DNA from: Hexactinellida sp. DTS-2022
Taxonomy: Eukaryota > Porifera > Hexactinellida
Reading direction: 5' to 3'
NCBI GenBank assembly: GCA_028753945.1
Contig: JAPNXP010000005.1
Location: forward strand, 186,001 to 250,000
DNA length: 64,000 nt
The notes beneath the pieces are model-generated. The model searched no databases. It had not been told where the DNA came from and worked only from the letters and a program-made list of their open reading frames with translations. Both the position numbers and the translations under genes were made by a program. Within the stretch, counting starts at the first letter, position 1. Every line of letters begins with the position of its first letter. Below are positions 13,649-49,088 of the stretch, one piece after another.

Positions 13649-16600
13649 CTAATCTTGATCATCTTCAGAGTCATCAAGTAACTAAAAACAAACAATTTAT
13701 TCAAACTACAATTCTTAATTCCTATAAATCTAAACCATATTTTCCAGAATTAATAATCAAAATTATTTCCAGAATTATGAATCCAAATACTCCCCCCTAT
13801 GACTAAGTCATATTGGCCCGATACATTAAACATTGGATTTAACGACACTCGTTTGGGCAGGCTAAAAGGTCACTAAATCCGAAAGTCTTTATTAGCGATT
13901 TGTCGCTAAAACCGATGTTTACTGTACAGTAGAAACTCGTTAGTACAACACGTTAATACGAACACTATTCAGTCCCCTTCAAAGCTCATTCAATACAAAT
14001 TATATTGGTTAAGACGATCGCATTTTGACGGTCCCCTGGTGTTCGTACTAACGAGCTTCTACTGTAGTATATATAACTAACTATGCTATAATTCCTTAAC
14101 AGGGCCTATAACACTCACAGGTTCGTCTCTCATCTTGAAGCTGTCCACCAGCCCGCTGCTCCTTCCACTGGAGCCGGTACCGCTGGACCTGGTGTACGCA
14201 CTGCCTCTTATCTTAAGAGGGGAGTTCCAGTTAGACCCCGCCCCCCTACTCCGGTTAGTCTGCTCGGCGCTAAGCTGCTCCTCCAGCTCGTCAACTTCCT
14301 GCTTGCTCTTGCGGTACTTTATCTTGAGAGCCTCGCACTCATTCATCTGTAGACAACAACAACAACAACAATAATAATAATAATAATATACAGTCAACTC
14401 CGCTTAATAGAGCCACCGGTTAATCGGTTCTTCCGCTTAATTGGGTCAAAATTTCACAGTATTTATAGGACAGAATTATAGTTTGGCTTTCAATATTTTC
14501 GGTTAATCGGTTTCTCCGCTTAATCGGATGAAAACAACCTGGTCCCGAGGTGGCTCTATTAAGCGGAGTTGACTGTACACTGCTTCCGTTAGCGTATAGG
14601 CCAATGAACCACTAGTAATTGGTCTATTGACAAGCCTACAACAGATCCTATCGGATATAACTCACGGTCTCATCATACTCTAGCTTAACACTCTTGTATT
14701 TCTTGGTAAGGATAGCAATCTCTTCGTTAATGCGTCTGTTTATCGCCATCTCCTCTTCCAGCTGAGCCTGCAGCTCTCTGCTCTTCCTATCGGCTCTACA
14801 CACATATAGTGTTAATAGCATATTATAGCAGTAGCTAGCTTAATAGCAGTAATAGCAGTTGTTAAATAGCTCTGTTAATACATAGTACAAACATAGTTAG
14901 TAGCATTAGCTAGCTTAATAAATTAGTACTAAGTAGCTCTGTTAATAGCAGTAATAGCAGTCTCTGTTAATAGCACTGTTCTGTTATTAGTACTGTCGAA
15001 ACCGGTTTTTTCCAACCAATTCTTTGCATGGAAATAGTATAGTAAAAAGATCCGATAGTTAGAATAAACCGATTGAAAATTTAACAAATTATAATTTCTA
15101 ACAGATTTAGAATAAATAGTAAGTTAGTAGAAAAAAGTTAAAAAAACCGGTTTCGACTGACTCTGTTAATACTTAACTTAATACTTAATAGGAAGGAACA
15201 CGGATAAGGGATATCGGTTAAGGAGTACAAGGTTAATTCCCCTAGCCTATACTAATGCATGCAAGTGACTCCGGTTAATACGAATTCCGGATAATACGAA
15301 CATATTAAGACAGTCCCCTTGTGTTCCTATTAACAGAGTCTACTGTATTTGTTTGTTACTAACTTTTTAATGTTTTTAGTGGAGTCCTTCTTTCCCTTTA
15401 TTTCTAACTCCAATGCCTCATCAAGTTCCCGTATCTACAAACAAAAGGTGTTAGTATCTATATACATTTGTTGTTGTTGTTGTTGTTGTTTACGATATGG
15501 TACCTTTTCTTCTAACTTCGTTATCTGTCGTTTCTGTAGTTTGACAGAAGAGTCGGTTGCCTCTTCCAACTGAGAGGTGAGTTCTCTCATTTGTCTGTCG
15601 CTCTGTGACTACAAACAATACATACCTATTGTACAGTACTGTTGCTATAGAGAGAATTCAGGGAATTATCCAGGAGCACGAGACGCTCCTTTTGGGGCAT
15701 GATTTTAAGAAAAAAATAATTAGGAGCGCGAAAAATTGGAATTTTCTCCTATACCGTAACATTAATTTGTGATTTAGCCGTATGGAAATTGGATCAGACC
15801 AGGATTAGGAGCGTATTTACAAATGCTTGTATAATACACTGAGGAAGAATAATAATATTGGCTTGTGCACCAAAATAGCTTTGAATTGTTTGGTTATTCA
15901 ATGATTGTGTTGTTAGTTGTTACCTTTTGTTTTTCTAATAACTGAATTTGCTCTTTCATTTGTAGATTATCAGCTGACTGTCTCGTCACCTACAAACAAT
16001 ACTGTATTAACACCTCTTATATGGAACTATAGATTTATAGTACCTAATTCCTTATACCAGCGATTCCTAACATTTTTCACCAGCGGACTCCTTATAGCAA
16101 ATACCAAATATTATGTGGACCCCTCCCATTATCCGTAATACAAATTTAGAGATATTGTGAAACATCATCGGGAACTGCATATAGTGTTCTTATACCCGGC
16201 ATAAAATACGTATATAGGGGTATATGGCAACCGTTTTCTAGTAGAATGTTCTTATACCCGGCACTACTGTATAACATTGGCATATATGTATATACACTAC
16301 TATACACTATACACTATACAGAGGTCACAAGTATTACTTTATCAACGGCGCCCTGGCACTTCTCATTAGCCTCCCGGTTGCTATTCTCCAGGTCCTCTAA
16401 CTCCTCCTCCATATCAGTTCTCTCCTCCTCCAGTTTCCGCTTCTGGGACTGCAGAGCTATAAGCGCAGCCTTGAGACTCGTGACCTCCGAGCCCAGCTCC
16501 CCCAGGTCTGTGTCCGTAGCTCTCTTGCTTCTGTCAGACTACACCGTATTGCATAGCACATAATATAGGATAGGATAGCACATAGTATAGTACAGTTAAC

Positions 16601-19600
16601 ATAGCGTGTAAGGTGTAAGGTATTATACGTATTAACCAAGGTTGCAACCGAATAGTTCAATAGTCAGTTGGACCAAATACTATATTTCCAAATACAGTAT
16701 AACCTCGTTAATACGAAATTCCGAGTAATAACATGTTGTTGTACGTATTATACGTAATACACCTATTATACAACTTAGATGTTTACATTATTATCCACAT
16801 AAATATATACTACTATATTATTTGGTAATTTCCTGTAACTAATAATGTAACATGTTTTTTGTACGAATTACACTTAATATGCTTACTATACCTACTATAA
16901 AGATATACCATCCAACACATGTACACACCATATTATATGTTTACACCTCAGCACTAATAAGTTAGCACATATATTGACACATGAAACCGTGTTTGTTACC
17001 TGAGCAATGTGAGACTTGAGATGGTCTATCTCTGACTGTAGTTCTGTGCATTTCTTGTCGCTTTTGAGAACAGCCGCTTTAATTTCTTCAGCCAATTTCT
17101 TCTCTTCTTCAATCGCTACGTTTGAATCCTATATAATTATACAGCTAGTTAGATGATTGGTTAAACAGCTAGTTAAATGATTAGTTAAACAACTAGTTAA
17201 TCAACTAGTTAGATGAAGAATTAAACAATAGTTGATGATTACTTAAGTTCAACTGTACACGTATATCGAATTTGAAGTTAAACAGCTAGTTAATTGATAG
17301 TTATTAAACAAATAGTAATTCCATTGTTTCAACATTATATCGATTTGTTAACTTACGTCTAGTTAATTGGTTCGTTATACGTTTGTTTGTTATATGGTTC
17401 GTTAAACAACTAGTTGATTGGATAGTTAGATAGCTTACCTTGAGTTGGTTTTGAGATCTTTTCAATTGCTTGGTGAGATCAACACTGAACTAAACAAACA
17501 AATCAATAGCTTAACAATCCTATATAGCATTATTGTACTAACTAATAACTACAGTATAACCTTTAGAAAGTGAACACCCTGGGGACAAGCCAAACGTTCA
17601 CTTTTGAGAGGTGTTCACTTTACATGATCTATCATAAATTGTGTCTAAAGCAATGGGAAAAATTGGGACCGAAAAAAGTGTTCATATTTTGGAGTTGTTC
17701 ATTTCTTGAAGGTGTTTACTTTTGGAGGTTTTACTGTAATAGCATTAGCATATAACTACCATAGCATTATACAATACTGCAACTAACTAACTAATAGCAT
17801 TACTGTAGTTACCTTTTTGAGCTGTTCCGTTTGGTCCTCTAGGTCCTGTACCTTGGCTTCGTTCCCTTTCTTGAGTCTCACTTGATCGTTCTTAGATCGA
17901 GACTCCTCCTCGAGAGAACCCTTGATTACCAACAGCTGTTTCTGATGGTTCTTTCTAGACATAGGAAACCAATTGTAACATTCGTATTTGCTGTTCATAC
18001 GCTAGTTATACACAGGCTTTTATCCCGGTAAAATTTTGGCGAACTTGAATTTAATTTGAGCTCGCTCACTCGCGCCTAAATTATTAATTTTCGCGCCTAG
18101 AAATTTTCTTATACGCGCCTAAATTACTCATTTAAGTTTATAGAGTATTCTCTAGATTTTCGCGCTTAAAAAAGTTTCCTTACAAATTATGCTCGTATTT
18201 TCATACTTTCTAGAATAATATCATTAATGTCACACCTTATATTTTCGAATTCCTCATCTTTCTCCAGCAGTTTTCTCTCCATCTCCTGTCTATACTGATT
18301 GTACTCCAGTTGCACCTTAAGTTGTTTAGCCTGCTCGGTGGTAAGATTAGTTTCCAGATCTTCAATATGTTCTAGCAGCTCTACCCGCTCCGATTCGAGT
18401 CTCTTATTGCTACGCTGCATTTCGAACTTGTTCATGCCCCTCTCGGACACCTGTTCCTGTAGACTCCGTAGCTCCTCGCTCAGGGAAGAGCTCTCTCGCT
18501 TAAGACTGTCATTGTACGCGTCTAGCTCGTCGTACTCCGTATGCAGCTTTAGGAACTAGTGGGTGCAACCGTATTAGCACTGGGCTGTATTGGTACCTTA
18601 CGTAGGGTATACCAAGTGTTGCTGTTTGATAAGTATTTATATTATGCTACACATGGCCTACTTAATATACGGCTAGATATGTCACCGAGAGGGCCATAAA
18701 ACGAGAAGGCCAGTTTCTAATTTTCATTTTAGGATAAACTATGCATCCTATTGTTGTTATTTGGGTTGTATATAGGGTAATCAACCATTGCGAGTCCATT
18801 AGAACCACTTTTGAGAATCTCAGATTTGTGCTTATACCCCTACTAACTAGCATATAAGTTATCCCCTACATAACAAGAGCCCTTACCTCTGTATTACAGT
18901 GCCTTATACCCCTACTAGCATATAAGTTATCCCCTACATAACAAGACCCCGTACCTCTGTATTACAGTGCCTTATACCCCTACTAGCATATAAGTTATCC
19001 CCTACATAACAAGACCCCGTACCTCTGTATTACAGTGCCTTATACCCCTACTAGCATATAAGTTATCCCCTACATAACAAGAGCCCGTACCTCTGTATTA
19101 TAGTGCCTTATACCCCTACTAGCTTATAAGTTATCCCCTACATAACAAGACCCCTTACCTCTGTATTACAGTGCCTTATACCCCTACTAGCATATAAGTT
19201 ATCCCCTACATAACAAGATCCCTTACCTCTGTATTGTAGTGCCTTATACCCCTACTAGCATATAAGTTATCCCCTACATAACAAGATCCCTTACCTCTGT
19301 ATTGTAGTGCCTTATACCCCTACTAGCATATAAGTTATCCCCTACATAACAAGATCCCTTACCTCTGTATTGTAGTGCCTTATACCCCTACTAGCATATA
19401 AGTTATCCCCTACATAACAAGATCCCTTACCTCTGTATTGTAGTGCCTTATACCCCTACTAGCATATAAGTTATCCCCTACATAACAAGATCCCTTACCT
19501 CTGTATTGTAGTGCCTTATACCCCTACTAGCATATAAGTTATCCCCTACATAACAAGACCCCGTACCTCTGTATTATAGTGCCTTATACCCCTACTAGCA

Positions 19601-22600
19601 TATAAGTTATCCCCTACATAACAAGACCCCGTACCTCTGTATTATAGTGCCTTATACCCCTACTAGCATATAAGTTATCCCCTACATAACAAGAGCCCTT
19701 ACCTCTGTATTATAGTGCCTTATACCCCTACTAGCATATAAGTTATCCCCTACATAACAAGACCTCGTACCTCTGTATTGTAGTGCCTTATACCCCTACT
19801 AACTAGCATATAAGTTATCCCCTACATAACAAGACCTCGTACCTCTGTATTGTAGTGCCTTATACCCCTACTAACTAGCATATAAGTTATCCCCTACATA
19901 ACAAGACCCCGTACCTCTGTATTATAGTGCCTTATACCCCTACTAGCATATAAGTTATCCCCTACATAACAAGAGCCCTTACCTCTGTATTATAGTGCCT
20001 TATACCCCTACTAGCATATAAGTTATCCCCTACATAACAAGACCTCGTACCTCTGTATTGTAGTGCCTTATACCCCTACTAGCATATAAGTTATCCCCTA
20101 CATAACAAGACCTCGTACCTCTGTATTACAGTGCCTTATACCCCTACTAGCATATAAGTTATCCCCTACATAACAAGAGCCCGTACCTCTGTATTACAGT
20201 GCCTTATACCCCTACTAGCATATAAGTTATCCCCTACATAACAAGAGCCCTTACCTCTGTATTACAGTGCCTTATACCCCTACTAGCATATAAGTTATCC
20301 CCTACATAACAAGAGCCCTTACCTCTGTATTATAGTGCCTTATACCCCTACTAGCATATAAGTTATCCCCTACATAACAAGAGCCCGTACCTCTGTATTA
20401 CAGTGCCTTATACCCCTACTAGCATATAAGTTATCCCCTACATAACAAGAGCCCGTACCTCTGTATTACAGTGCCTTATACCCCTACTAGCATATAAGTT
20501 ATCCCCTACATAACAAGACCTCGTACCTCTGTATTGTAGTGCCTTATACCCCTACTAGCATATAAGTTATCCCCTACATAACAAGAGCCCGTACCTCTGT
20601 ATTACAGTGCCTTATACCCCTACTAGCATATAAGTTATCCCCTACATAACAAGAGTCCTTACCTCTGTATTACAGTGCCTTATACCCCTACTAGCATATA
20701 AGTTATCCCCTACATAACAAGAGCCCTTACCTCTGTATTATAGTGCCTTATACCCCTACTAGCATATAAGTTATCCCCTACATAACAAGAGCCCGTACCT
20801 CTGTATTACAGTGCCTTATACCCCTACTAGCATATAAGTTATCCCCTACATAACAAGAGCCCTTACCTCTGTATTACAGTGCCTTATACCCCTACTAGCA
20901 TATAAGTTATCCCCTACATAACAAGAGCCCTTACCTCTGTATTACAGTGCCTTATACCCCTACTAGCATATAAGTTATCCCCTACATAACAAGACCACGT
21001 ACCTCTGTATTACAGTGCCTTATTCCCCTACTAGCATATAGGTTATCCCCTACATAACAAGAGCCCTTACCTCTGTATTATAGTGCCTTATACCCCTACT
21101 AGCATATAAGTTATCCCCTACATAACAAGACCCCGTACCTCTGTATTACAGTGCCTTATACCCCTACTAGCATATAAGTTATCCCCTACATAACAAGACC
21201 CCGTACCTCTGTATTATAGTGCCTTATACCCCTACTAGCATATAAGTTATCCCCTACATAACAAGACCCCGTACCTCTGTATTGTAGTGCCTTATACCCC
21301 TACTAGCTTATAAGTTATCCCCTACATAACAAGAGCCCGTACCTCTGTATTACAGTGCCTTATACCCCTACTAGCTTATAAGTTATCCCCTACATAACAA
21401 GACCCCGTACCTCTGTATTGTAGTGCCTTATACCCCTACTAGCATATAAGTTATCCCCTACATAACAAGACCTCGTACCTCTGTATTACAGTGCCTTATA
21501 CCCCTACTAGCATATAAGTTATCCCCTACATAACAAGACCCCGTACCTCTGTATTACAGTGCCTTATACCCCTACTAGCATATAAGTTATCCCCTACATA
21601 ACAAGACCCCGTACCTCTGTATTACAGTGCCTTATACCCCTACTAGCATATAAGTTATCCCCTACATAACAAGACCCCGTACCTCTGTATTACAGTGCCT
21701 TATACCCCTACTAGCATATAAGTTATCCCCTACATAACAAGACCTCGTACCTCTGTATTACAGTGCCTTATACCCCTACTAGCATATAAGTTATCCCCTA
21801 CATAACAAGAGCCCGTACCTCTGTATTATAGTGCCTTATACCCCTACTAGCATATAAGTTATCCCCTACATAACAAGAGCCCTTACCTCTGTATTGTAGT
21901 GCCTTATACCCCTACTAGCATATAAGTTATCCCCTACATAACAAGACCCCGTACCTCTGTATTACAGTGCCTTATACCCCTACTAGCATATAAGTTATCC
22001 CCTACATAACAAGACCCCGTACCTCTGTATTATAGTGCCTTATACCCCTACTAGCATATAAGTTATCCCCTACATAACAAGACCCCGTACCTCTGTATTA
22101 CAGTGCCTTATACCCCTACTAGCATATAAGTTATCCCCTACATAACAAGAGCCCTTACCTCTGTATTACAGTGCCTTATACCCCTACTAGCTTATAAGTT
22201 ATCCCCTACATAACAAGACCCCGTACCTCTGTATTACAGTGCCTTATACCCCTACTAGCATATAAGTTATCCCCTACATAACAAGACCCCGTACCTCTGT
22301 ATTACAGTGCCTTATACCCCTACTAGCATATAAGTTATCCCCTACATAACAAGACCCCGTACCTCTGTATTACAGTGCCTTATACCCCTACTAGCATATA
22401 AGTTATCCCCTACATAACAAGACCCCGTACCTCTGTATTACAGTGCCTTATACCCCTACTAGCATATAAGTTATCCCCTACATAACAAGACCCCGTACCT
22501 CTGTATTACAGTGCCTTATACCCCTACTAGCATATAAGTTATCCCCTACATAACAAGACCCCGTACCTCTGTATTGTAGTGCCTTATACCCCTACTAGCA

Positions 22601-25522
22601 TATAAGTTATCCCCTACATAACAAGACCCCGTACCTCTGTATTACAGTGCCTTATACCCCTACTAGCATATAAGTTATCCCCTACATAACAAGACCCCGT
22701 ACCTCTGTATTATAGTGCCTTATACCCCTACTAGCATATAAGTTATCCCCTACATAACAAGACCCCGTACCTCTGTATTACAGTGCCTTATACCCCTACT
22801 AGCATATAAGTTATCCCCTACATAACAAGAGCCCTTACCTCTGTATTACAGTGCCTTATACCCCTACTAGCTTATAAGTTATCCCCTACATAACAAGACC
22901 CCGTACCTCTGTATTACAGTGCCTTATACCCCTACTAGCATATAAGTTATCCCCTACATAACAAGACCCCGTACCTCTGTATTACAGTGCCTTATACCCC
23001 TACTAGCATATAAGTTATCCCCTACATAACAAGACCCCGTACCTCTGTATTACAGTGCCTTATACCCCTACTAGCATATAAGTTATCCCCTACATAACAA
23101 GACCCCGTACCTCTGTATTACAGTGCCTTATACCCCTACTAGCATATAAGTTATCCCCTACATAACAAGACCCCGTACCTCTGTATTACAGTGCCTTATA
23201 CCCCTACTAGCATATAAGTTATCCCCTACATAACAAGACCCCGTACCTCTGTATTGTAGTGCCTTATACCCCTACTAGCATATAAGTTATCCCCTACATA
23301 ACAAGACCCCGTACCTCTGTATTACAGTGCCTTATACCCCTACTAGCATATAAGTTATCCCCTACATAACAAGACCTCGTACCTCTGTATTACAGTGCCT
23401 TATACCCCTACTAGCATATAAGTTATCCCCTACATAACAAGAGCCCTTACCTCTGTATTGTAGTGCCTTATACCCCTACTAGCATATAAGTTATCCCCTA
23501 CATAACAAGACCCCGTACCTCTGTATTACAGTGCCTTATACCCCTACTAGCATATAAGTTATCCCCTACATAACAAGACCCCGTACCTCTGTATTGTAGT
23601 GCCTTATACCCCTACTAGCATATAAGTTATCCCCTACATAACAAGACCCCGTACCTCTGTATTACAGTGCCTTATACCCCTACTAGCATATAAGTTATCC
23701 CCTACATAACAAGACCTCGTACCTCTGTATTACAGTGCCTTATACCCCTACTAGCATATAAGTTATCCCCTACATAACAAGAGCCCTTACCTCTGTATTG
23801 TAGTGCCTTATACCCCTACTAGCATATAAGTTATCCCCTACATAACAAGACCCCGTACCTCTGTATTACAGTGCCTTATACCCCTACTAGCATATAAGTT
23901 ATCCCCTACATAACAAGACCCCGTACCTCTGTATTATAGTGCCTTATACCCCTACTAGCATATAAGTTATCCCCTACATAACAAGACCCCGTACCTCTGT
24001 ATTACAGTGCCTTATACCCCTACTAGCATATAAGTTATCCCCTACATAACAAGACCCCGTACCTCTGTATTACAGTGCCTTATACCCCTACTAGCATATA
24101 AGTTATCCCCTACATAACAAGACCCCGTACCTCTGTATTATAGTGCCTTATACCCCTACTAGCATATAAGTTATCCCCTACATAACAAGACCCCGTACCT
24201 CTGTATTACAGTGCCTTATACCCCTACTAGCATATAAGTTATCCCCTACATAACAAGACCCCGTACCTCTGTATTACAGTGCCTTATACCCCTACTAGCA
24301 TATAAGTTATCCCCTACATAACAAGACCCCGTACCTCTGTATTACAGTGCCTTATACCCCTACTAGCATATAAGTTATCCCCTACATAACAAGAGCCCGT
24401 ACCTCTGTATTATAGTGCCTTATACCCCTACTAGCATATAAGTTATCCCCTACATAACAAGAGCCCTTACCTCTGTATTATAGTGCCTTATACCCCTACT
24501 AGCATATAAGTTATCCCCTACATAACAAGACCCCGTACCTCTGTATTATAGTGCCTTATACCCCTACTAGCATATAAGTTATCCCCTACATAACAAGAGC
24601 CCTTACCTCTGTATTACAGTGCCTTATACCCCTACTAGCATATAAGTTATCCCCTACATAACAAGAGCCCTTACCTCTGTATTATAGTGCCTTATACCCC
24701 TACTAGCATATAAGTTATCCCCTACATAACAAGAGCCCGTACCTCTGTATTATAGTGCCTTATACCCCTACTAGCATATAAGTTATCCCCTACATAACAA
24801 GACCCCGTACCTCTGTATTACAGTGCCTTATACCCCTACTAGCATATAAGTTATCCCCTACATAACAAGACCCCGTACCTCTGTATTATAGTGCCTTATA
24901 CCCCTACTAGCATATAAGTTATCCCCTACATAACAAGACCCCGTACCTCTGTATTACAGTGCCTTATACCCCTACTAGCATATAAGTTATCCCCTACATA
25001 ACAAGACCCGTACCTCTGTATTACAGTGCCTTATACCCCTACTAGCATATAAGTTATCCCCTACATAACAAGACCCGTACCTCTGTATTGTAGTGCCTGG
25101 CTTCCTTCATGCCTTCCTGACACTCCTCTTCCTTCCTGTCGAACTTTAGTTTCCATTCTGCGAACTGTGTGTCTACCTTTCTCTGTTTCTTCTCCAGATT
25201 AGCAGTCGCCCCGTTTGCCTAACAGTGCAATATAACTATAGCAGTCTCGAGAGAGATAATACATGATATACTACATACGGGCATTCGAATGTTAGGTAAC
25301 GTAATACAGTGGATGCCGGATATAAGAACATGCAGGTTATAAGAACATTATATGCAGTTCCCGACGATATTCTTTAACCGGCATCCACTGTATCCCGAAA
25401 TTATACACCAAAAATCACACTTTTTCACCATTTTGTAATATATAAACGATGGCCTGTCACACATTGGATTATGAGCTTTGCATAACGTATGAACTCTCCC
25501 CATGATCCCACAATAAGTTGTC

Positions 25523-25554
<32 letters not shown>

Positions 25555-25701
25555 GGGGCTATTCAAACGTTAAGTAGTGAAACACCATCTGTTTACATTA
25601 CAACTAGGTCAAAAGGGTAACGTAGGGACGGGATCTAATTTTCGGGAATTTGCATAACGTAACATTGAACGTCCCCTAACAACGACAACGACAACAACGA
25701 C

Positions 25702-25754
<53 letters not shown>

Positions 25755-28700
25755 GTACCTTCTCTAGCTCTACGTGCATATCCTCTATGTCGTTGGTTAG
25801 TCGTAGCTTTATTTTCTCCAGAGCACAAGCTTTGGCTTCCCATCCGTTAACCAGATCCTGCAGCTCGTTTAGCTTCCCGATCAACTTGCGTCTAAATAGA
25901 ATACCAAATTGTCAACAGCTACACCAATATAAATATATGGGGTCCTTATTGATAAGTTAGTTTAGGTTCCAATAGGAACTTAAAGTGTTTGTTCAGTTCC
26001 TATAATAACAGTTCTATTAACAAGCCATAGCTACTGTAATAAGGCCTGACAGTAACATTGACCTAGTATGTAATTAGTAAGTCCATAGTGTATCAATTTA
26101 GTATACTTTCATATGTAGCCTTTATAGTATAGTATACGTATAGCAATTATACAACAACAAGACTTGACTATAACATTGCTAAATTATTATCCGCTTATAA
26201 CGAATATCCGGATACAACGAAGGAATTTACATACGGGTCCCAAGCACATCGTTATAACGAGAGTTGACTGTAGTTAGTAATACAGATACATAGCCTATCA
26301 ATGGTACTTTCATATGCAGGTCTTATAGTATTACCGAGCTCTATACCATATTACAACAAGACTTGACTATATAACCTGACCATACATAGCTATATTATCC
26401 TACCTCTGATCCTCTAGATCCCCTATAGTCCCCAGGGCTTCATTCTCGTACTTATGTTTCCAGGTCCCCCCGTCCTGTCTCTCCCTGTTGAGCTGCTTAA
26501 TCAGATCCTCTCTGCTCTCCAGGGTCTCCTCCAGCTGTTCGTGTATCTGCTCCAGCTCTGTCTCCGTCTGTCGGAGGCTGCTGCTCAGTGTAGTGGCAGA
26601 GACAGCTGACTCATCGTTAGTAAGCCGGAGCTGTAATAGACATATTATAGAGATTATATAGTGGAACTGCTGAACAAATATGAACAATTGTCCGTAATAC
26701 AAATTTAGAGATCTTGTGGACCCCAGGTTGGGAGCCACTGCCCTATTCAATACTACAGTGGATGCCGGTTATAATAACATAGTCGGGAACTGAATATAAT
26801 GTTCTTATAACCGGTATATGGCAACCGTCTATAAAATCTGTAGAGCAAAAGCCCCTGCTGTCTATGGAAATAGTTTTAACTTAACTTTTAAGTATAATAA
26901 AACTTGTTTATTTATAAACGGTCTACATATAAGTTATTTCATATGAATAAGACACCACTTTTCAATACAACACTTTTCATTACGTGAGCTCCAAAGGTGA
27001 ACTTTATGACTAAAAATGCCCTTGCCTGTGCTTGAAAACACATTAGAAAGGTGTTGGAATTAATAAATGCTAGATTTGCAAAAATTACTTTACCTCTTCC
27101 AGCTGATTTTCGTGCATTCTCTTGTGCATGTTGAGTTGCCCTAATTCAGACTCTGCTGTATCCAAATCGGAACTAATCGTGTTTAGTTCCACAGATAGTT
27201 TCATATTCAGAGCTTTTGATTCCTCGTAATATCCCTCCAATTCATTGTTCTATTTATAGAACATAATTACATTAGAATACTTATGATGCTTGGTCCAATT
27301 TTAACTACAGTCGATTCCGCTTAATAGAGTCACTTTGGTCCTAGGGTAGTTTGACCCGATTAAGCGGAGATATCTATTAACCGGTGGCTCTATTAAGCGG
27401 AGATATCTATTAACCGGTGACTCTATTAAGCGTGGTATGCTATGGTTCCAATTGGAACTGTAACTATACCTTTGCTACTGTCTCAGCTAGTCTGTCCTCG
27501 AGGTGTCGACATGACTTCTCAGCTGTCACCTTTGATTTGTGTGTCTGATCCAACTGAGACTTTGTATCCTTAAGTGCCTCTGTAAGGAGAGATACCTCCT
27601 TGTCGTTCCTACAGGGTAGGTAGGGGGGAATTAGGTGTTAATTAGCTTGTTTAGAACTTGTTTACTAGCTTGTTTAATTAGTTGTTTAATAGTTATTTAA
27701 AACTTGTTTATTAGCTTGTTTAATTAGTTGTTTTTAGGGGTTTACTAGTTATTAATTACTCGTTGTTAATTAGAATGTTTTCTTAATTGTTTACTAGTTT
27801 TTACTAGTTGTTAATTAGATTGTTTTTAGGGGTTTACAAGTTGTTTATTAGATTGTTTTTTTAGGGATTTACTAGTTGTTTAGATGTTTATCACTTTCTA
27901 AAGGTTTTACTCTAGTTTTATGCTAGTAGGGGATAACTTATAATATAAGGCACCATAGGCGCCGAAAGGGGGGGGGTCAGGGAGGGTGTCACCCCCCCTG
28001 GCCGAGGAGAAGTCAGGAGGAAAAAAATGGAAAATTATTGATTCCATAATGAGTTTGTATAAATATCAGTGGATGATGTATATATCTTTACAATTATGCC
28101 CATCCAACATTGATTTTATCCCCATACGCATTGTTTTTTGAACTTTCACATTTGAATATTACGTCACACACCCCCTAGCGATTGAGAGTTTCGGCGCCCA
28201 TGTAAGGCACTATAATACAGAGGTAAGGGCTATGGTAGTTATTACTAGTATAGCTAGATTAGCTAGCACTCTATGGCCTCGCCTCCAGGTAGAGTAGGGA
28301 TAGACGGACTGAGAGATCGGATCGCGGAGAGAAAACAAGAGGTAAGGGCCCGATTCCGCAGGTACCACGAAGCTCTGTTGCTAACAGAGACTGTGCTCCT
28401 ATCAGACCTGGACGGGGTACTAGCCAGGGGGGAAATAGAGAAGAGATACATGGCCAGTGATATTAGAGAGGTGGAGTCTGCTAATGAGTTTATGGTGAAG
28501 CAACTTGAGAACTCTGTAAATGAATCTCTGATGAATAGTGTTCATAGTTTGACTAAAGAAATTGAAAAGTTAAAAAGCTATGAGGATGAAGTACCAGAAA
28601 TTACTCTCAATTGGAAATTCGATAATTTCCGTAATCTTATTCACCAGCTGTGCTATATAAAAGAGAAATCATTTCCTCCCGCGAGGAGAATTGCTTGGTC

Positions 28701-31700
28701 AGAGTTGGAAAAAGGGGATAAAATGTCACAATTAGATTGCTATGATTCTTGCTACGATAATACTGACGGGCTTTACTACTTCATGAACTCATATATAAGC
28801 AGTTGTAACCACAGAGTTAATAATAGTATATCGATATACAGTTCAAAGCTTGAATTTATAGCTAGTTACACACTTAATAAACAAGCTTCTAATTGTTTTA
28901 TTAAAACAACCCCTCATTTCATATTCCTTTCTTCCCCAACACGAATTATCCAACTAATAAAAGCTCCTAGCAGAAAAGGTTTAGACCTAAGGAAAGAATT
29001 TGAAATTGAACTTAATGAAAAGTCAAGCAGAATCGATATTTATGGCGACTTTATATACACAACTTCCAATACAAATGTTGTTTACAAGTTAACTGTCACT
29101 AATCTGCAAATAGTAGAGGAGATTCATCTCAGAAATGAGAAAGAAGAGAACATTAAATTCGATGGGATATTCGATTTAAAAGTTCTCGATAGCGAAATAT
29201 TTGCTATAATGAACTCTGCAACAATGCGAGCTATCTATTGCTTTGATTTAACGGGTAGATTTAAGAGAGAGATTGTAGGCAATAACAGGGGTCTACAGCA
29301 CCCTCTGTCATTCTGTTTAGGTACCGACGGTATGGTATATGTGGCGGACGGACAGGTGAAGGCTTTCGATAAATATGGGAAACAAGTGGATGCGTTTGGT
29401 AAACAAGTGGCAGATTATACTGTATGGGCGAAATGTGTTACTTTTGACTCGAAATCGAATCAAGTGTTAGTTCTAGCAGAGCTAGATGGAAAGTATTTGC
29501 ATTCTTACACATAGCTAGACCTAGAGAAATAGCATACAAACTCACGTTACTTAGATATGTAGTTAAGTTACTACTCGACAAAATTTTGACATTATTACAA
29601 AATTTATTTTTATAGATTATCCTGTTAATAATATCACTTGTATTATAACTATCATTATTTTGTAATAGAGATTGACTATTGTAACTCACGTTATAACTTG
29701 AGTTCACTGTATATAAATAATACAGTAAACTCGTTATAACGAAGTGCATGGGACCTGTAAATCCCTTCGTTATATCCGGATATTCGTTATAAGCGGATAA
29801 TAATTAATGCATTTAGTACTCTGGGGAAAATATCCATTTCGTTATAAGCTGGTATTTCGTTATATTCGTGTTAACCGGAGTAATACCCATTGTAGGGACC
29901 TGATTTTGTGGAACTGTTTGTTCGTTTTATCCGGAAATTCGTATCAACCATGTTCGTACTAACTAGGTTCAACTGTACATCGTTATACGGGAGTTCGCTG
30001 TACTTACTTTACTCTTGCTTTCTTCATCTGTTCTATGTCCTGCTCATAGCCCTGTATCTGGGCGCCGCTGTTCTTCTTAATCTCTCCGACAGACTTCCCG
30101 TGATCTGTCCTGGAACTCTCTAACTCCTTCTGCAGAGTCTTCAGGTCCTGTTCTCGCTTCCGGTTTAGCTCTACCTATTAATAGACACACTACATAGGCG
30201 TAGGCTCCGGTAGGGTTGGTGAGGCCATGGCCCTACCAATAATTTGTCAAGAGCCATCATCTTCTATTAAGTATGATGCAAGTTAGCATAAATGGCCCTA
30301 CCAATCCCCATCCCAAGTCTACGCCCCTGCCTATATATAGCACGAGATTCCATCCAGTATTTTCCTAAATTGTCCAGACTTTTTTTATTATCATCCAATT
30401 GTCTGTGATTCGCTCACATTCGACTAATACAGTGTCGAGTTTTTACTTTGACGACTATACTATAGTATAGTGGCCAAGGAATTATCCAGGAGCGCGAGAC
30501 GCTCCTTTTGGAGTATGATTTTTGGAAAATTTGAATTAGCAGCGCGAAAATTTGGATTCTTCTCCTATACCGTAACATTAATTTGTGATTTAGGCGTATG
30601 GAAATGGATCAGACCAGGATTAGGAGCGTATTTACAAAGATATTTACAAGGGTCCACAGATCTTAAATCTGTAATACGGGCAATGGGAGGGGGTTCACAG
30701 AATATTTGTTATTTGCTATAGAGGGTCCACGGTAGAAAAGATTTGGAATCGCTGGATTAGAAAAATCTCGTTTATATAAGTTCCGATTAATACAAGAGAT
30801 ATCTTATATGTAGACCGTCTAGAAATAGACCAGGTTTTATTCCCTATGCATTAGTATTACCCATAAAAAGCAGGGCAAGTGGTCTACAGAATTTATAGAC
30901 GGTCTACAAATTTTTGGCTTATTTGTATGGGCTTTTATAGACCGTCTATTTCTAGACGGTCTACATATAAGGATGCTCTTAATACAACTGGACCATTCAA
31001 ACGTTAAGTAACGTAAATTCCCAAAATTAGATATTTTTGCCATTTAGTAATACAAACGGTGATATGTCACACATTGGTTACCCCCTTGGAAGTGTAACAT
31101 AACATTTGAACCACCCCATTATACTGTTTCGGTCCCTTTAAAAGCCTTATAAACCCACTTACACCTATTAATACGGATTTCGGTTGAAGCAACAAATATG
31201 ACGGTCCCCTGGTGTCCCTACTAACGAGATGAGATACCATATTTACAAAATATAACAACTCACTTTATTATCTTGTTTAAGTGCATACATTTAGGCTAAC
31301 TTATCACTTTTCTACTATTTATATCAAACAATCAAATCATAGTTACACATATGGCTTATAATTATGCACAATCTAATTCTATGAAATAGAAAGTGCGTTT
31401 AATATTTCCTGAGTTCTGCTAATTCTTTTCGAAACCTGGCCGTTACATTTCGCATATCTTTTCAATGAGTAAATTAGAATTTCCTCTAATTACACGATAA
31501 TTATCAGCTGAATAGTGGCTATACAATGGAAGCCGCTTAATATTTATTCTGATTATATAACTAATTCCACTCCGCTTAATAGAGCCACCGGTTAATAGAT
31601 TTCTCCGCTTAATCGGGTCAAAATTTCACAGGATTTATAGAACGGAATTACAATTTGGCTTAAAATATTTCGGGTTAAAATAGAATTCTCCGCTTAATCG

Positions 31701-33984
31701 GTTTCAAAGTAACCTGGTCCCGAGGTGGCTCTATTAAGCGGAGTCGACTGTATTTCCACTTTTACAAACCTGTACTGTAGTAATTCCCCCTTGTCTCTCT
31801 AGTTGCTCTTCCAAATACTCCAGATCTCTGTTTAGCTCCGATTTAAGCTTATCCACCTGTTAATTATAATATACAATAATGCGGCTATTTGTATTGGTAC
31901 TGATTATGGAGTTTTATCCCATAAATTCCGAATATTATGGATGCCGGTTATAAGAACATCGTCGGGAACTGCATATATTGTTCTTGTAACCGGTATAAAT
32001 TATACAAGGTATATGGAAACCGTTTTCCAGCAGAATGTCCTTATAACCGGTGTTCTTATATCCGGCAATATAGAACAATAAATAAGTGATAAATAAACAA
32101 ACAAACAAACTGTTTACTTACTTTTTTTAGATTTTCCTTTTCCTGGTCTAAATCTTCGTCTAACTCTTCTATTATTAACTCTAATTTCTTAATCTTTTTC
32201 TGTAAATTTGAATTTTCGTTTTGAGCTTCGTCATTGCTATATGTGACATTTGCCAAATCGTTCTCTTTCCTACACAACAACAACAACAACAACAATAATA
32301 ATAATAAACAAATTGTTGTTATTTATAAATTGTGTGTTATACCTCTGTTGATGGGATTTTAATTCTAAAATTTCATTTGATGAATTCTCTAAATCTTGTT
32401 GCAGTCCCTAAGACAATAGAATATGTGATTATTATTTATTTGTTTGTTCGTTAGTTTGTTCGTTAGTTTGTTAGTTTGTTTATTTGTTTGTTTATTTGTT
32501 TATTTAATTGTTTGTTTGTTTGTTTGTTTATTAGGTACAGTTGAAACCGGTTTTTCCTAACCATTTCTTTGTATGGAAAGAAAGTAAGAAAAATCCGATT
32601 ATTAGAATAAACCGATTTAAATACAACAAAATTTAATTTCTTACACATTTAGAATAAATAGTTAGTTAGAAAAACCCAGTGTTAGAAAAAACAGGTTTCG
32701 ACTGTATGTGTTAGGTGTGTGTATTTATGTGTTTGTTTATTAGTTTGTTGTGTGTTAGTTAGTTTGTTTGTTTGGTTATACAGTGGAGCCTCCCATAACG
32801 GACACTCCAAATAGCGGACAACCTCTAAATAACGGACAACGGTTCCGGTCCCAAGGTGTCCGTTGTTCAGAGGCTCTACTGTAGTTTGTTTGTTTATTAG
32901 GTGTATTTGTTTATTAGGTGTATTTGTTTATTAGGTGTATTTGTTTATTAGGTGTATTTGTTTATTAGGTGTATTTGTTTATTAGGTGTATTTGTTTATT
33001 AGGTGTGTTTGTTTATTAGGTGTGTTTGTTTATTAGGTGTGTTTGTTTATTAGGTGTGTGTATTTGTTTATTAGGTGTGTTTGTGTATCTGCCCTAACGC
33101 ACCCTAATTTCCTGCTCCAGCTTCCGCTTGCTCTTGTCCATATCTGTCCTGGATCCCCTCTCGTTGCCCAGCTGCTCCTGGGACTCAGTCAGCTGACTCT
33201 CCAGCTTCTGTTTGGAGCGAATCAGCTGATTGTTCTTATCCTCCTGGGTCTGCAGGGCTGTGCTCGTATCCTAACAACCAAACACGTCATAAGAATGTAT
33301 ATCCCACCAATAACAAACATGTATATAGCACATCGTCTAAGAACATCTAAATAACTTAATAATAGAGCAATATTCCTATTAAAGCAATTGCTATTAGATT
33401 GTATAATGAATGTATACTAAAAGATACCCCCCATCAATAAGATAAGATACCAATAAGATAGGATGCCAAATAAGATGATTTTTAAACCGAGTTTATAAAG
33501 TAGTATGTATTTATATGTAGGTTACACTCGGTTAATACAGTGGTGTTCGCGTAATAGCAAGTCGCATTTTGTACGAAATTTGCTTGCTATTAGAGGAACA
33601 GAATTAATATTAAATGCTCGCTTGGGGACTGAAATAACTTCCTAATAGAGCAATATTGCTATTACACTGTATAAATAATGTATAACAACTATGCAATGAG
33701 AGCTCACGTTGTATAAGTCTTCGATATATTTCTTTTCCTTTTGTAACCGAGAGAACTGTTCCCCCATTTGTTCTATGTCTCCTCCCATCTGATTGAAGTC
33801 CTGTTCCCTCAGCCGCTTCTCCTCGTCCAGCTAAACAACAACAACAACAATAACAATAATAACAACAACAACAACAACAATAACAACAACAACAACAACA
33901 ACACAGTAACAACAACAATAACAACACAATAATAACAACAACAATAACAACAGTAACAATAACAATAACAACAACAACACCAAT

Positions 33985-34049
<65 letters not shown>

Positions 34050-37000
34050 CCAGTGCTCGATAAATTAGTGGTTTGGTAGTGTTAGCCATCAAAAGTATTT
34101 ATTAAGCCACCAAATTTTGCCTTTGGTGGCTTAACTAATCCAGCTTAAATCGTGGATTATTTAACTTTGTGTAGATTATATTTTTCGTTGTTTTACGGCA
34201 TCAGTGATTTGTTAAACCGGCCTTTATTTATTCTTTAGCCATCCGAAAAAGTGAGGTGGTTAATTTGATTTTTATCGTGCACTGAATAACAACAGTAACA
34301 ACAATAACAACAACAACAACAACAACAACAACACTTACAGTTTGTATCTCCTGCTGCAGCTCCTCTACATTAACCCTCAGCTTATCCAGGTCTACATCTA
34401 ACTTCCGCTTTGCTGTCGATATTAGCACATTCGCATCCTCCTCCTCATCAAGGCGAGCCTCCAGCTCCTAAAGACAATTGTATTGTTATAGTATGCCTTA
34501 TGAGCTTTTAATTGTATTATTATACCAGGGTTTCATTTAGGGGGGGGATTTGCCCCCCCCCTTGGGATTTGAAAATACAATTGAAAAAATCAAAGCTGAA
34601 ACCGCCCCCCCTCTCACATTCCCAAAAACTCTACTTTGCCCCCCCCTTGCCTAAATATCTGGATGAACACTGTAATTATACCTTATTCATTACGAACGTT
34701 AAAGGGACCAATTCATAATAGAGATACTTCATATAAGCGAACTCAACTTAATACAAATCCTATGTACAATATAACTTGTTAATAAATACCACCAAAGGGA
34801 CTTGCCAATAATGGCCTTTATTACAGGTGACCGTTATACACAGGTTGATTATAGGGAAAGTCATTGAGGACCGATTATAAGTGGCCGTTATAGACAGGTT
34901 ATTCTGTTATTGTTAAACTGGGACCATACGTAGGGCTTGTTCATAATAAAGTTTCCTTATTAAGCAGACGGATATAGTTAACATAGGCAGACCTGACTGC
35001 TTACAGATAAGCTGTATGTACCTGTATCTCTTCCTGTAATTCCCGTCGCTTAGCTTCCAACTTCTCATTCCTGTCTTCCAACTCCGCGACTAGTTCTTGT
35101 TCCTATAATGATACTATTAATAGAACTGATACTAACTACAGTATACTCCGCTTAATAGAGCCACCGGTTAATAGATTTCTCCGCTTAATGGAGTAAAAAT
35201 TTCACAGGATTTATAGGACAGAATGACATTTTAGCTTAAAATAATTCGGTTAATAGATTTCTCCGCTTAATGGGGTCAAAATTTCACAGGATTTATAGGA
35301 CAGAATGACATTTTAGCTTAAAATAATTCGGTTAATAGATTTCTCCGCTTAATCGGGTCAAAGCAACCTGGTCCCGAGGTGACTCTATTAAGCGAAGTCG
35401 ACTGTACATACAGTTGTTAGTACCTTTGCTAAATCTCCGAATATTTGTTGGTTTGTTTCCAGAGCAGTTAGGTTCCTGTCTTGTAGCTCCACCATCTCTG
35501 CCTCCACCAATCTCAGTCTCTCTCTCAACAGAGATATCTACACATATGATGTTATGTTGTTGTTGTTGTTGTTATGTTGTTGTTTGTTATATATAGCTAT
35601 ATATTTATTTGTTTACTTGTTTGTTGGTGTGTTTGTTTGTTTATTTGTTGGTTTGTTGTTTATACATTTATCTATCTGTTTATTATTATTTGTTTGTTTG
35701 TTGCTTTGTTTATTTGTTGGTTTGTTTGTTTGTTTATTTGTTGGTTTGTTGTTTATATATTTATCTATCTGTTTATTATTATTTGTTTGTTGCTTTGTTT
35801 ATTTGTTGGTTTGTTGTTTATATATTTATCTATCTGTTTATTATTATTTGTTGTTGGTTTGTTTGTTTGTTTGTTTATTTGTTTATTCATTTATCTCCTT
35901 GTTTATTTATTACTTGTTGTATTAACTATTTGTTTAGTCGTTATTTTATAATAGGGAAATAATGCTCCTTATACCATCATAACCAATTAATAATGAATAC
36001 CAACAACCCATACAAATGCCCTCACAAGGTATCTGCTATCATAATATATAAATACACACATATCTTTGTCCAATTACCGTTGTCAAAGTGAGTGAATTAG
36101 AATCGCGAAATTAATGTATCTGCTATATAACGCTACTTATAGCTTTTATAGGCAAAGTTAGATTCCTATTTCTCTTTGTTTGTTCTAAGAAGATACCAAT
36201 GTGTGTCACGAATATGGCTTTATTCAACGTCATTTCGTATCATACTATCTCAATAGAGCCACTGACTAATACCATAGTTCTAAGGTCTAATTCCATTCTT
36301 ATAAAGTTCATGTTGTTCTTATTCAACGAAAGATTCCAACAGAATCCTGCTATAACTAATGGCTACTGATTCTATAGCCATACAGGCTTCTGTTATACAA
36401 CAGACTAATCACTTGTTTCTTAGCACATTTGTGTGTGTATAGGAATGCATCTCAATGGTTCTATATAGGGTTTGGAACGGGTAATTCAGTTAGGGATTTT
36501 AGTCGCTTAATTAATTCAAACCTTAATTACATATTGATATACGGATACCCTCTGTTAATAGGAACACAGATAAGCGAAATATCGGTTAATGAATACAAGC
36601 TTAGTTCTCTAGCCTATACAAATGCAAGTAACTCCGGTTATAATACGAATTCCGGATAAAACGAAACAAATTTCGACGGTCCCCTGGTGTTCCTATTAAC
36701 AGAGTCTACTGTACATATATTAACCGTGTTATGAGAGAGTAGAATAGAATAGAATAGAATAGAATAGAATAGAATAGAATAGAATAGAATAGAATGGAAT
36801 AGAATGGAATAGAATGGAATAGAATAGAATAGAATAGAATAGAATAGAATAGAATAGAATAGAACACAACACATATATTTATACCTCATCATCTTTCTTC
36901 TTCAAGTCCTCTTCTGTTCGGGAAACTTTTAGAATTGGCTTTACTTTTGTGAACAGTTTCCACCAGGGCCAGTTCCTCAGAATGAGATGCGTTTTGCAAT

Positions 37001-37051
37001 TCTTCTGCAGTACTATTAGCGCCACTCTAAATAGTGTAGTGTATTATTATG

Positions 37052-37082
<31 letters not shown>

Positions 37083-40000
37083 TTATTTTTATTTTTATTT
37101 TTTTGTTTTGTGTTGTTGTTGTGTTTGTGTTGTTGTTGTTGTTGACATGTTGACATTTTTATTTTTGTTTTGTGTTGTTATTGTGTTTGTGTGTTGTTGT
37201 TGTTGTTTTGTTGTTGTCATTTTTATTTTTATATTGTGTTGTTGTTGTTGTTATTGTACATATTTGTGTTTGTGTTTGTGTGTTGTGTGTTGTTGTTGTT
37301 GTTTTATAACTTTGTTTATATTTAGTTTCTGTTTTGTTTACTTTTGACTCTGCATTTTCTGGTAATGCTTCCTCAATAGCCATCCCCTGCAGTTGGCTTG
37401 AAACAACAGAATTATTTTGGATAATTTCTGGTCTCTCAAGTCTTCCAGTCGTCCTATTACGCCCGTCCTGAAGAATACCTACACATTCCAATTCAAACAA
37501 TCGTAACTAATATATTGCAATGGAGTGTACCAACAAAATCCATCAACATTAGATCGAAAAAAAGAATTTACCCCGGGACTTCATTATTCAGGCGAATAAA
37601 TTTATTTTATTCTTTCTAACCAGACACGTATAACATTTAAAAATAATCAATTAAGCGTGCAAATTAGGCGCCATTAATTCCGCGCTAATTTGGGCGGGTA
37701 AAACAAGGACCAGCTGTTTAACTTTATACAAAATAACAAAATATAAATACACACACTGGCCTAAGGCCTCACTTATAGTATAACATTAAGCTATGCTTTC
37801 TGAGAGTACTCATATCCTATCTCTTTTCAAACGAGATCCGTAGCCCCTTAGGCACTAGCATGACCTCTAAGCTGGTCTCGGGTTCCTGCACCAGGTGTAG
37901 TCTGTAGTCCCTGCAGAGCTGAGCTGTGATCAGCTGCATCTCTGCCTCCGCCAGACGCCTCCCCACACACATGCGAGGCCCCACTCCGAATGGGATGTAA
38001 GAGAACGGGTCTATGTCGCTCCTATTCTCCCACCTCTCCGGCCGGAACTCTCCAGCCTCTCTCCAGTACCTCTCGTCCAGTCCCATCCCATACAGGTCAG
38101 CCAGCACCTGTGTGCCCCTAGGCATACGCACCCCTCCTATGGTGCAGTCCTGAGGGAGAGTTCGACCGAACATGCTCCCTGTAGGGGTTAGCCTCATGGA
38201 CTCCTTCATGCACCATTTAACGTAGTGCAGCTTGTTGTAGTGCTCTGCTGTTATGACGGGACTATCTCCCACCACAGAGTGTACCTCCTCACATACTCTC
38301 TCCTGTGCAGTAGGGCTCTTGCTTAGGTTGTACCATAGCCATTGTGTAGATATCACCGTAGCATCCATCGAGCCAGCTAGGAATGTTATGAAACTATCCA
38401 ATATATCCACCCAATCGAAATCCGTTTCGTTCTGTAAATACCCCAGTAGAGGCATTTGAATCATATCAGTGCTTATAGATCTGTTACGAGACATATTAAT
38501 ATGTTTCTCTGTGTAACTAATGACAGTTTTGAACGAATGAATGAATCTGTCCCATTCTTTGCTCGCGAAATATTTCCTATAATCGTACCATTTGTAATCC
38601 AGATAACTCCTGCTTATAACTAAGACCGCATTTATGAACTCGGTTAACTCTTCTGTCACCTCTGAATCTCTCTCAGTGTGGAACAACAAATAATATGCTG
38701 AGTTTATCGTCCATAGACATAATTCTTCACCAGTAAGGTTGCTACGCTCGTTTCCCCTTATATCCTGCTCTGTGATATTTCTAACAGCATTTGCAGCTAT
38801 TCTACTTAACCTGGGCAGATAATTCGATAGAGACTTAGGCTTTAAAAACCGCTTCGATAATGGTGCCCTCAACTGTTTCCAATGTTTTCCATTCGATAGC
38901 AGACCTGGCTTTAAGCCAACAGCCCGCTTAGCTGTGTTAAACCAGCCACTTTCCTTCCGTCTAACGGGGAATTTCCCCTCTTTTGATATCAGTTCTGATA
39001 CCAAAGCTGGCGTGCTTATCACAACACTCTCCTTAGCAAATAAAAACGGCGACAAAATAAACATATCTCCTAATTTCATTCTTCTTTCACCAAACAATTC
39101 ATGGAATTTATGCGGCGGATACCTGAGCATCTCTAGGTCCACTAATCCAAGGAATTTCTCAGCTGTTGGCAGATGTTTAACATGTTTGACATTTGTTAAA
39201 ATGCCAGTACTTAAAGTACGGAGTGTTTTACACATAATTCGTAACATTATGCCAGTGCAATGGATAACTAACAGTAATAGTGGTCAGTTAATTATATACT
39301 CGCTCGTGACTAATGAGTATATGTTGGGACATCCCACACAGGATAAATTAGAGTATCAGTTTCAACAAGTAATGCAGCTAATAATATCTGAGAGCATTAT
39401 TGCAACTAAACTTAAATCTTCTACAAAGTGCCTCCAAAAAACTTCCAGGGAATGGTTTTTCTCTGTTCAAATAATTATAATATAATAAACTCCTTTTTAT
39501 AACGTTATTTATTATGAATATTCAAGGACCAACAATTGTGTTCATATTAGAGAGACTTCATATTCATAATAGGCGAATTTAACTTAATACAAATTATATG
39601 AAAATTGTTACAATGGGACCATAGCGCTTGTTCATAATAAAAAGTTGTTCATATCAATACGAATTCCGGATGAGGCGAACACATTTTGATGGTCCCCTGG
39701 TGTTCGTACTAACGAGGTTCTACTCTACTTTTAAAACGATCAACATGGTGATCCACCATAAGGTTCCATTGTTAATATAAACAATGCTAGCAGTAATCTA
39801 TTCATACTAAAGAGTTCTAACGTTGGGCCCTCTTCTCGAATGAGATGTTTAGAAAAGATGTAGAGTATTAGTTGCAAAGATGCTCTCAGATATTATTACT
39901 CTACATTTCATGGGATATTCTATAGAGAGTAGTATTTCGTTGACATCACAAATTACAAGATTACCCAACATGATCTCAAGGTGTTATATTACTACTATTT

Positions 40001-46000: not shown

Positions 46001-48185
46001 AAAGTTAGGAGACTTCCCCTCTTGTGCCGCAACTATCTTATCCACGTAGCTCTTGTCTGTCGCTTTTGGGAACAAACACTCTTCGTCCAACAAACTCAGT
46101 AGTCCCATCGGCTACAGAGTAAATGGTGTTAATGGAACTGGAACCAATTATATAATAAATAACTTATATGTAGACCGTATATAAATAGACCACTTTTTTA
46201 ACTTTTTACTTTTTTTTCCACTTTTTTAGTATTACCCATATACGCTGGTGCTTTTTGTCTGCTTAATTTATAAACGGTCTACAAATTGTTTGCTTAGTTT
46301 GTATGGGCTTTTATAGACCGTCTTGTTAATGCTACTAGGACCAATTATATAATCACATTATTTGTCATCAAATATATCCCAAATACAGTATTCATTAATA
46401 CCGGCTATAACCTCATTAATACACAATTTGTTTACTTTTATAAAACGTAAAAATATTATTTTACTCAATAGTTGACTTGTTTATCTACTTAATTATGTAC
46501 GTACTTATTTGTTTACATTTTGTGTACTTTTAGTGTACTTATTTGTTTACTAGTTTGTTTACTTAATTGTTTACCTTTTCTATGAGGTCAATACATGTCT
46601 GTAGATCTAATCCGAAGTCTATAAATGTCCATTCGATATTTTCCTTCCGATATTCCTCCTGTTCCATTATGAACATGTGATGGTTAAAGAACTGTTGTAG
46701 CTTTTCGTTTGTGTAGTTTATGCACAGCTGTTCAAAGCTATTCATCTGTAAACAACAACAATAACAACAACAATAATAAAAAGTAAACAAGTTGTTGTGC
46801 TAAGAATAAATTTATACTCACCGCGAAAATTTCGAATCCTGCTATATCCAATACACCGACGAAGAAATTTTTTGTTGACTAAACAAGAAAAGTTGTTTAC
46901 ATTTTGTTTACTTCACACAAGTATAATATAATATACAGTAGATTCTGTTAATAGGAACACCAGGGGACCGTCTTAATATGTTTGTATTATCCGGGATTCG
47001 TATTAACCAAAGTCACTTGCATGCACTTATATAGGCTAGGGGAATTAAACCTTGTACTCCTTAACCGATATTTCCCTTATCCGTGTTCCTACTAACGAGA
47101 GTCTACAGTACTGTATATATTACCTTAGTATCGAGTGTTTGGTTTATTCTGTCAACAATCCATTTGAACATTCTGTCATACAAACTCATCGACAGAGCTC
47201 CGATAGAAGCCATTACCTGTTATAATAGTACAATAGTACAATAGTACAATAGTATAGTGTTATAATAATATAGTGTTATAAAAGTACAATAGTACAATGT
47301 TATAATAGTATAGTATATAATAGTACAGTGTTACAATAATATATACACAGTCATGATACTGTACGTATATAGCGATAACTTATACATAACGGAATTTAAA
47401 ATTCATAATAAGCAGACGGAAATAGTTCATTACAGTAAAACCTTTAGAAAGTGAACACTCTGGGGACCAGCCAAAACGTTCACTTTTGAGAGGTGTTCAC
47501 TTTACATGATTTATCATAACGTGAGTCTAAAGCAATGGGAAAAATTTGGGAACGAGAAAAAGTGATCATGTTCATTTCTTGAAGGTGTTACTGTACAAAA
47601 CGTGATACTAAAAATTATACTTAAAATTATACTAAATGATACTAAAATGATACATAATGATACTATAAATAGAACATACCTGCTCAGCTGATCTGCCCTG
47701 GGAGACCCATTCGTTGCCGACTTTAATTCTAGGCTTCAGAAGGGACTTCTTCAGATCCTCAGACTTTATGCCTAATAAGTGTCCCACTTTATCTGTCACT
47801 ATAAATAGAATACTCATGTCAAATATGCAATAAGTGTCACTATAATAAATGGCATAATAAGTCGCTAACTAACGATAAAATGGTACTAAAATAACGATAA
47901 AATGGCATTAGAATAACGACATAATGTCACTAAATATCGATAAATGGCATAAATTGTCACTAAATATCGATAAAATGGCATAATATACCACTAAAGTGGC
48001 ACTAAAACTAAGTACTCACACTCAAACGATTCTTGAGTGAAGCTTGCTTGCTCCTCATTCCTTCTCTGAGTACACTTAACATTTCCGAATATCAGAATTG
48101 CTGACACTATTTGGAATAAGCTCTTTCTTTCCAAGTCTGAAAATCCCAGCGTGTCCATTGCACTCTAAAGAGACAGTGTTGTTGC

Positions 48186-48247
<62 letters not shown>

Positions 48248-48613: not shown

Positions 48614-48651
<38 letters not shown>

Positions 48652-49057: not shown

Positions 49058-49088
<31 letters not shown>

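Follow-up and report, generated by a model that had tools for sequence, protein, structure and literature searches.

Intron 35 of a muscle-type myosin II heavy-chain gene of Hexactinellida sp. DTS-2022 is occupied almost entirely by a tandem array of 92 units of 68 bp, each of which repeats the final 18 nt of exon 35 together with the first 50 nt of the intron, including the 5' splice site. This array arose by tandem duplication over the exon 35/intron 35 junction. We consider it probable that it represents a junction-born minisatellite that is tolerated and near neutral, with the genuine donor being the one mainly used.

The array and its host gene

The window analysed is a stretch of 64,000 nt (C14:186001-250000) in a genome of 112.4 Mb in 18 contigs. 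The gene, identified by a protein search with a draft protein built from its exons, lies on the minus strand and extends approximately over 14000..55900; its coding exons were aligned from 55830 to 15363, with the 3' end left approximate. Among the 120 relatives listed of 7,996 scored, the nearest to the draft protein is P0001, a full-length transcriptome protein with 65% identity. Also among the closest is P0012 of the glass sponge Oopsacas minuta (64% identity across 39% of the query); P0032 of the sponge Ephydatia is 44% identical, and the remaining listed relatives are mostly animal muscle myosins. Alignment of the gene to P0001 placed 41 introns, of which the one after 17408 is doubtful. 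Exon numbers start at the first coding exon found and take into account one more intron, counted between 52.8 and 50.0 kb but not placed.

Exon 35 (25081..25218, minus strand) ends with ...RHYNTE and is followed by the genuine donor GTACGG (25075..25080, minus strand). Intron 35 (18556..25080, minus strand) is 6,525 bp long; the remaining 40 introns that were placed measure 387.5 bp at the median and at most 4,494 bp, and introns as short as 55-76 nt are present in the gene. Exon 36 (18236..18555, minus strand) starts with FLKLHTEY after the acceptor CACCCACTAG, and the protein junction over the two exons reads RHYNTE|FLKL, as in P0001. Since its 320 nt are not a multiple of three, skipping of exon 36 would break the frame. 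A paralogous myosin at 1.6 Mb on the same contig was tried as a comparison and set aside: its aligned exon reads through (EGRQATTRLLALKG), with no intron there and no comparable junction.

The array extends over 18831..25098 on the minus strand, from within the end of exon 35 into the intron (25080-18556). TRF detected a single array of period 68 with 91.9 copies and 97% matches (18846-25098), and the far end near 18831, in a last partial unit, was set by eye. In the sense orientation the unit reads AGGCACTGTAATACAGAG|GTACGGGGTCTTGTTATGTAGGGGATAACTTATATGCTAGTAGGGGTATA, with GTACGG or GTAAGG as the main donors. The motif ACAGAGGTA was found 92 times, always in register, at spacings of 68 nt (87 cases), 67 nt (two cases, nearest the exon) or 72 nt (two cases, with a TTAG insertion). 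A sequence-only reading of this DNA had described an array that fills the intron and runs without a break into exon 35, and our gene model bears this out, with the intron almost filled and unit 1 beginning in the exon end AGGCACTACAATACAGAG, which supplies its first 18 nt. The match between array and exon is not due to chance, because the first unit is the exon end itself; moreover, the alignment to P0001 sets the donor at 25081|25080 independently of the array. The sharing of the exon end by the units, proposed in the same reading, also holds, but over 18 rather than 17 nt, positions 8-9 of which vary among units. Its count of about 92 donors was right as well, except that they do not all follow the real one: the total of 92 comprises the genuine donor and 91 decoys. 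All 92 units have a GT donor in the same register (GTACGG 58, GTAAGG 24, GTACGA 9 and GTACGT 1). The last decoy, GAG|GTAAGG (18881..18886, minus strand; exon-side end at 18887), would give an intron of 331 bp to the real acceptor.

To compare the units, the TTAG insertion was taken out and the two 67-mers were padded, which brought 91 of the 92 units (the last excluded) to 68 columns. Nine columns are variable, and 20 distinct units were found. A run of 11 units recurs 10 units further along the array, which shows recent growth in blocks. The variants at columns 8-9 and 22 occur in all six combinations, pointing to short-tract exchange. The exon has TAC (Tyr) where 52 of the 91 aligned units have TGT (Cys) at the same codon, as expected if only the real exon is held by selection. 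Five of the six common variable columns lie within 19 nt, a clustering near the donor with a simulated probability of 0.086 on which we do not rely.

The introns of this myosin gene harbour other genes. An MCM-domain gene is nested in intron 15 (43494-45710, minus strand), and in the Oopsacas minuta record P0012 this MCM-type gene is present as well (60% identity over 634 aa), fused into the myosin at the same place as judged by eye. The nesting is thus common to Oopsacas minuta and the present gene, and the public Oopsacas gene model that fuses the two is probably wrong. Four single-ORF genes are found in other introns (28267-29514 and 50804-52108, plus strand; 37817-39283, minus strand; 40061-41557, plus strand), and by eye two look NHL-repeat-like and two P450-like. 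In addition, (GTT)n runs precede several acceptors, e.g. at 49055, 48893, 48441, 33830 and 32269, and would act as a T-rich tract.

Origin and genomic distribution of the array

The relatives, compared as proteins, indicate that the exon end preceded the array, because the shared 18 nt encode residues that animal myosins conserve. Of the 120 myosins fetched (from 7,996 scored), 116 align over these six residues: 98 have RNYSTE, three RHYSTE, one RHYNTE and 14 other variants, although the rows are not independent, with many isoforms from a few tick species among them. The single RHYNTE is that of P0001, the query of this alignment and the closest full-length relative among those listed. Oopsacas P0012 is among the four that do not align, its record ending before the shared residues.

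We then searched the genome for the two parts of the unit. For 36 nt of its intron-derived part, 89 matches at ≤3 mismatches were found in 112 Mb, all 89 inside the array, and a reversed-pattern control gave none; more diverged copies are beyond the reach of this threshold. Of the 93 matches to the exon/donor part at ≤2 mismatches, the array accounts for 92; the remaining one is at 28205, on the opposite strand. Thus, at ≤3 mismatches over 112 Mb, the intron-derived part of the unit is confined to the array and does not behave as a dispersed satellite with copies at many places. As a control, a 38-bp satellite with a TGTATAATACACTGATTAGGAGCGTA core gave 194 matches in the same search at ≤2 mismatches, on 10 contigs among the 100 matches listed. 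In the window this dispersed satellite forms arrays at 42315-42531 and 58747-58901, and one of its arrays lies 14 nt from the exon 18 donor. Neither of the two findings that, according to the sequence-only reading, would make the exon match secondary was obtained: within these mismatch limits no satellite lacking the exon part was found elsewhere, and at the protein level the relatives keep the residues of the shared exon end.

The match at 28205 belongs to an inverted relic of the array (TATGCTAGTAGGGG ... TAAGGCACTATAATACAGAGGTAAGGGCT; 27919..28231, plus strand) in intron 30 of the same gene, about 3 kb upstream of the array. It is interrupted by a MITE-like element of about 249 bp (27954..28202, plus strand) with ends CATAGGCGCCGAAA.../...TTTCGGCGCCCATG and, by eye, an 8-bp target duplication TAAGGCAC. 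At least 39 other genome copies of this element, with 92-97% identity, are among the matches listed (230 first-look candidates, 40 scored). Without the element, the relic spans an array junction by eye, with a unit end, 11 extra nt and a unit start. Because it reads across such a junction, the relic would most simply be a copy of the array and not its source, in which case two or more units were already present in the array when the element inserted. The element differs from the majority of nine other copies at six of 250 sites; by eye, five of these differences are also present in copy L085, and only one substitution and one inserted base look private. The insertion looks recent, and we give no date for it.

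Two observations make the direction of birth clear: the exon part belongs to conserved coding sequence, and the relic outside the array copies one of its junctions. The converse, a satellite that came first and from which the exon end derived, would explain why exon end and unit are nearly identical, but it is contradicted already at the protein level by the residues kept in animal myosins, and within these mismatch limits near copies of the repeat were found only here; we find it barely credible. It is very unlikely that misassembly created the copy number or a portion of the array. The array length is taken from a single assembly, but nine variable columns and several unit types favour a real array, a separate relic outside it has the same sequence, and just the exact unit count could be off. 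Growth from a junction duplication, one of the options raised by the sequence-only reading, is thus supported by the identity of unit 1 with the exon end, the restriction to one locus and the recurrence of blocks. One or a few tandem duplications would have spanned the exon 35/intron 35 boundary and created an intronic minisatellite, which unequal exchange, slippage and short-tract conversion may have enlarged to 92 units. The exon sequence CCAGGCAC and the far end of the array ATAAGCAC have AG-CAC in common, which might have served as microhomology in the initial duplication. The distance from the last donor to the acceptor, 331 bp, is near the gene's median intron length, from which we infer an original intron of about 330 bp.

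Donor-bearing arrays were also searched for in the whole genome, and at a spacing of 10-37 nt there were 15 + 12 matches versus 10 + 9 in the reversed control, which is little excess. The idea that arrays in general cluster at the splice junctions of the myosin gene was not supported. In 34 of the 41 introns (intron 35 and short ones excluded), an array is present within the first 40 nt of 13 introns and within the last 40 nt of 12, counts that random placement reaches in 0.41 and 0.62 of 2,000 draws; arrays cover 24% and 23% of bases at the intron edges versus 16% inside.

Splicing potential of the decoy donors

Some decoys look better than the real donor, as had been proposed: the predicted U1 pairing is -10.1 kcal/mol for the 24 GTAAGG units among the 91 decoys and -5.9 for the genuine GTACGG, with -5.7 for GTACGA and -6.0 for GTACGT. 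The median for the donors of the gene is -5.8, and the GTAAGG decoys slightly exceed even the best (-10.0) among the 40 other donors placed. With a donor matrix derived from the myosin gene, the contrast is less dramatic. The GTAAGG units score 5.7-9.1, the genuine donor 4.4 and the gene median is 7.1; of the 91 decoys, 44 surpass the genuine donor, 46 fall short of it and one equals it. By the gene's own matrices, the genuine donor ranks 38 of 40 and the genuine intron 35 acceptor, with a score of -2.2, 39 of 40. The score of the genuine donor is reached by 242 of 1,638 intronic GTs in the other introns. Use of any decoy would add VRVLLCRG and then a stop, i.e. a stop after eight codons, inside unit 1, in line with the earlier expectation that it would disrupt the protein.

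None of the strong decoys is close to the genuine donor: they begin at unit 7, and seven of the 24 are in the first half, a skew matched or exceeded by 14 of 92 rotations. Local folding predictions gave the genuine donor a probability of being unpaired of 0.050, higher than that of 90 of the 91 decoys (median 0.012), but this accessibility is ordinary within the gene, with 24 of 40 other donors predicted to be less accessible. A selected RNA structure of the unit was rejected, as z-scores of 0.24, 0.51 and 0.55 for single units and -0.53 for two indicate folds whose stability does not exceed that of shuffled sequences. A weak association was seen between the pairing partners 8 and 22 (Fisher p 0.016), on which we do not rely since the units are not independent.

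Each unit also contains an acceptor-like site, TCTTGTTATGTAG, which ends 21 nt into the intron part, 47 nt upstream of the next donor. Present 92 times, it reaches up to 9.4 bits with the acceptor matrix of this gene, which is more than the median acceptor of the gene (7.9) and much more than the genuine acceptor scores. Each unit has CAGAG|GT as well, with the AG adjoining the GT scoring -0.9 or lower by this matrix, which is inflated by T/G-rich acceptors.

These features might suggest a regulatory device, a regulated poison splicing or a U1 sink, in which decoys would compete with the genuine donor, part of the transcripts would carry a premature stop and myosin output would be tuned at a level set by array length. 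The 24 decoys with better predicted U1 pairing, the stop that follows every decoy and the weakness of both genuine sites for this gene are consistent with it, as is the association of longer arrays with lower expression and more exon 19 skipping described for human ABCA7 (PMC5954066). Nevertheless, unit retention is described there as unchanged by array length, the strong decoys of the sponge start only at unit 7, and predicted folding would favour the genuine donor, though with a fold no more stable than shuffles; we regard such a device as unlikely. A splicing rheostat is distinctly improbable: weak genuine sites would face 24 strong decoys and 92 acceptor-like sites, array length and composition would set the full-length myosin fraction, and lower local structure would keep the genuine donor apart. 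Recursive or stepwise splicing, with the array removed in steps or 47-nt pseudo-exons included, could draw on the high-scoring acceptor-like sites, and introns of 55-76 nt are known in this gene. However, there is no long polypyrimidine tract, the acceptor matrix is inflated as noted and the pseudo-exons contain stops, making this highly improbable.

We thus favour a tolerated minisatellite. The spliceosome would still use mainly the exon-proximal genuine donor, a dominance suggested by ABCA7 and by viability and against which the predicted U1 pairing of the 24 GTAAGG decoys and the low matrix rank of the genuine donor speak. Intron definition would favour the last decoy, because it offers a short intron of 331 bp. 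When a decoy is used, the added intron sequence with its stop would lead to nonsense-mediated decay or a truncated tail, and the decoys would yield low-level aberrant transcripts. With the genuine donor mainly used and decoy products removed, the array would be near neutral or mildly harmful and not a device. Such arrays need not be neutral, because greater array length in ABCA7 is associated with reduced expression and increased skipping of exon 19.

Comparison with known donor-bearing arrays

The sponge array, found at one locus of the genome, belongs to a known kind, the minisatellite grown from an exon/intron junction, and is most likely tolerated. By its title, a 1995 paper reports a minisatellite that provides multiple splice donors in an interferon-induced transcript; the gene is said to be 6-16/G1P3/IFI6 and the unit 12 bp, in an array reportedly much shorter than that of the sponge. 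Internal tandem repeats at exon-intron boundaries in human segmental duplications are described as altering splicing, with 27 intron modifications kept after manual inspection by the authors and ~30-bp units repeated ~4 times on average (PMC2812944). The sponge array is likewise a minisatellite at such a boundary, but with a 68-bp unit in 92 copies. Work on intron gain describes how tandem duplication of an AG|GT-containing segment supplies splice signals, and cites two fission-yeast genes with multiple copies of a 24-bp segment. There, a new intron arises from exonic sequence, whereas in the sponge an existing intron was filled.

The sequence-only reading knew of no described satellite of this kind, but the VNTR in intron 18 of human ABCA7 is one (PMC5954066, Acta Neuropathol. 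2018). As described there, that array starts at the genuine donor of the preceding exon, and its 25-bp unit, in a C-rich region, has the donor as its first two bases. The smallest array observed has 12 units (Fig. 1 legend), and an allele of 9,711 bp corresponds, by our calculation, to about 390 units. Splicing from the next donor lengthens the transcript by one unit, with a frameshift and a premature stop; one-unit retention is given as 2 +/- 1%. Similarly, in the sponge the genuine donor of exon 35 is part of the array, every unit has an in-register GT donor and retention of one unit would give a stop. In contrast, its unit is 68 bp long and contains coding exon sequence, whereas that of ABCA7 is described as beginning at the GT, and the human VNTR is polymorphic with measured splicing, whereas the sponge array is known from the DNA of one assembly. 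Thus, an array type known from a human disease locus also arises in a sponge, where it is set apart by the 18 nt of coding exon that each unit contains, by donors of two main strengths and by a relic that orders events. With 92 donors in near-identical surroundings and in a known order, it amounts to a natural experiment on 5' splice-site choice, and sponge cDNA would therefore show whether position, U1 pairing or local structure decides.
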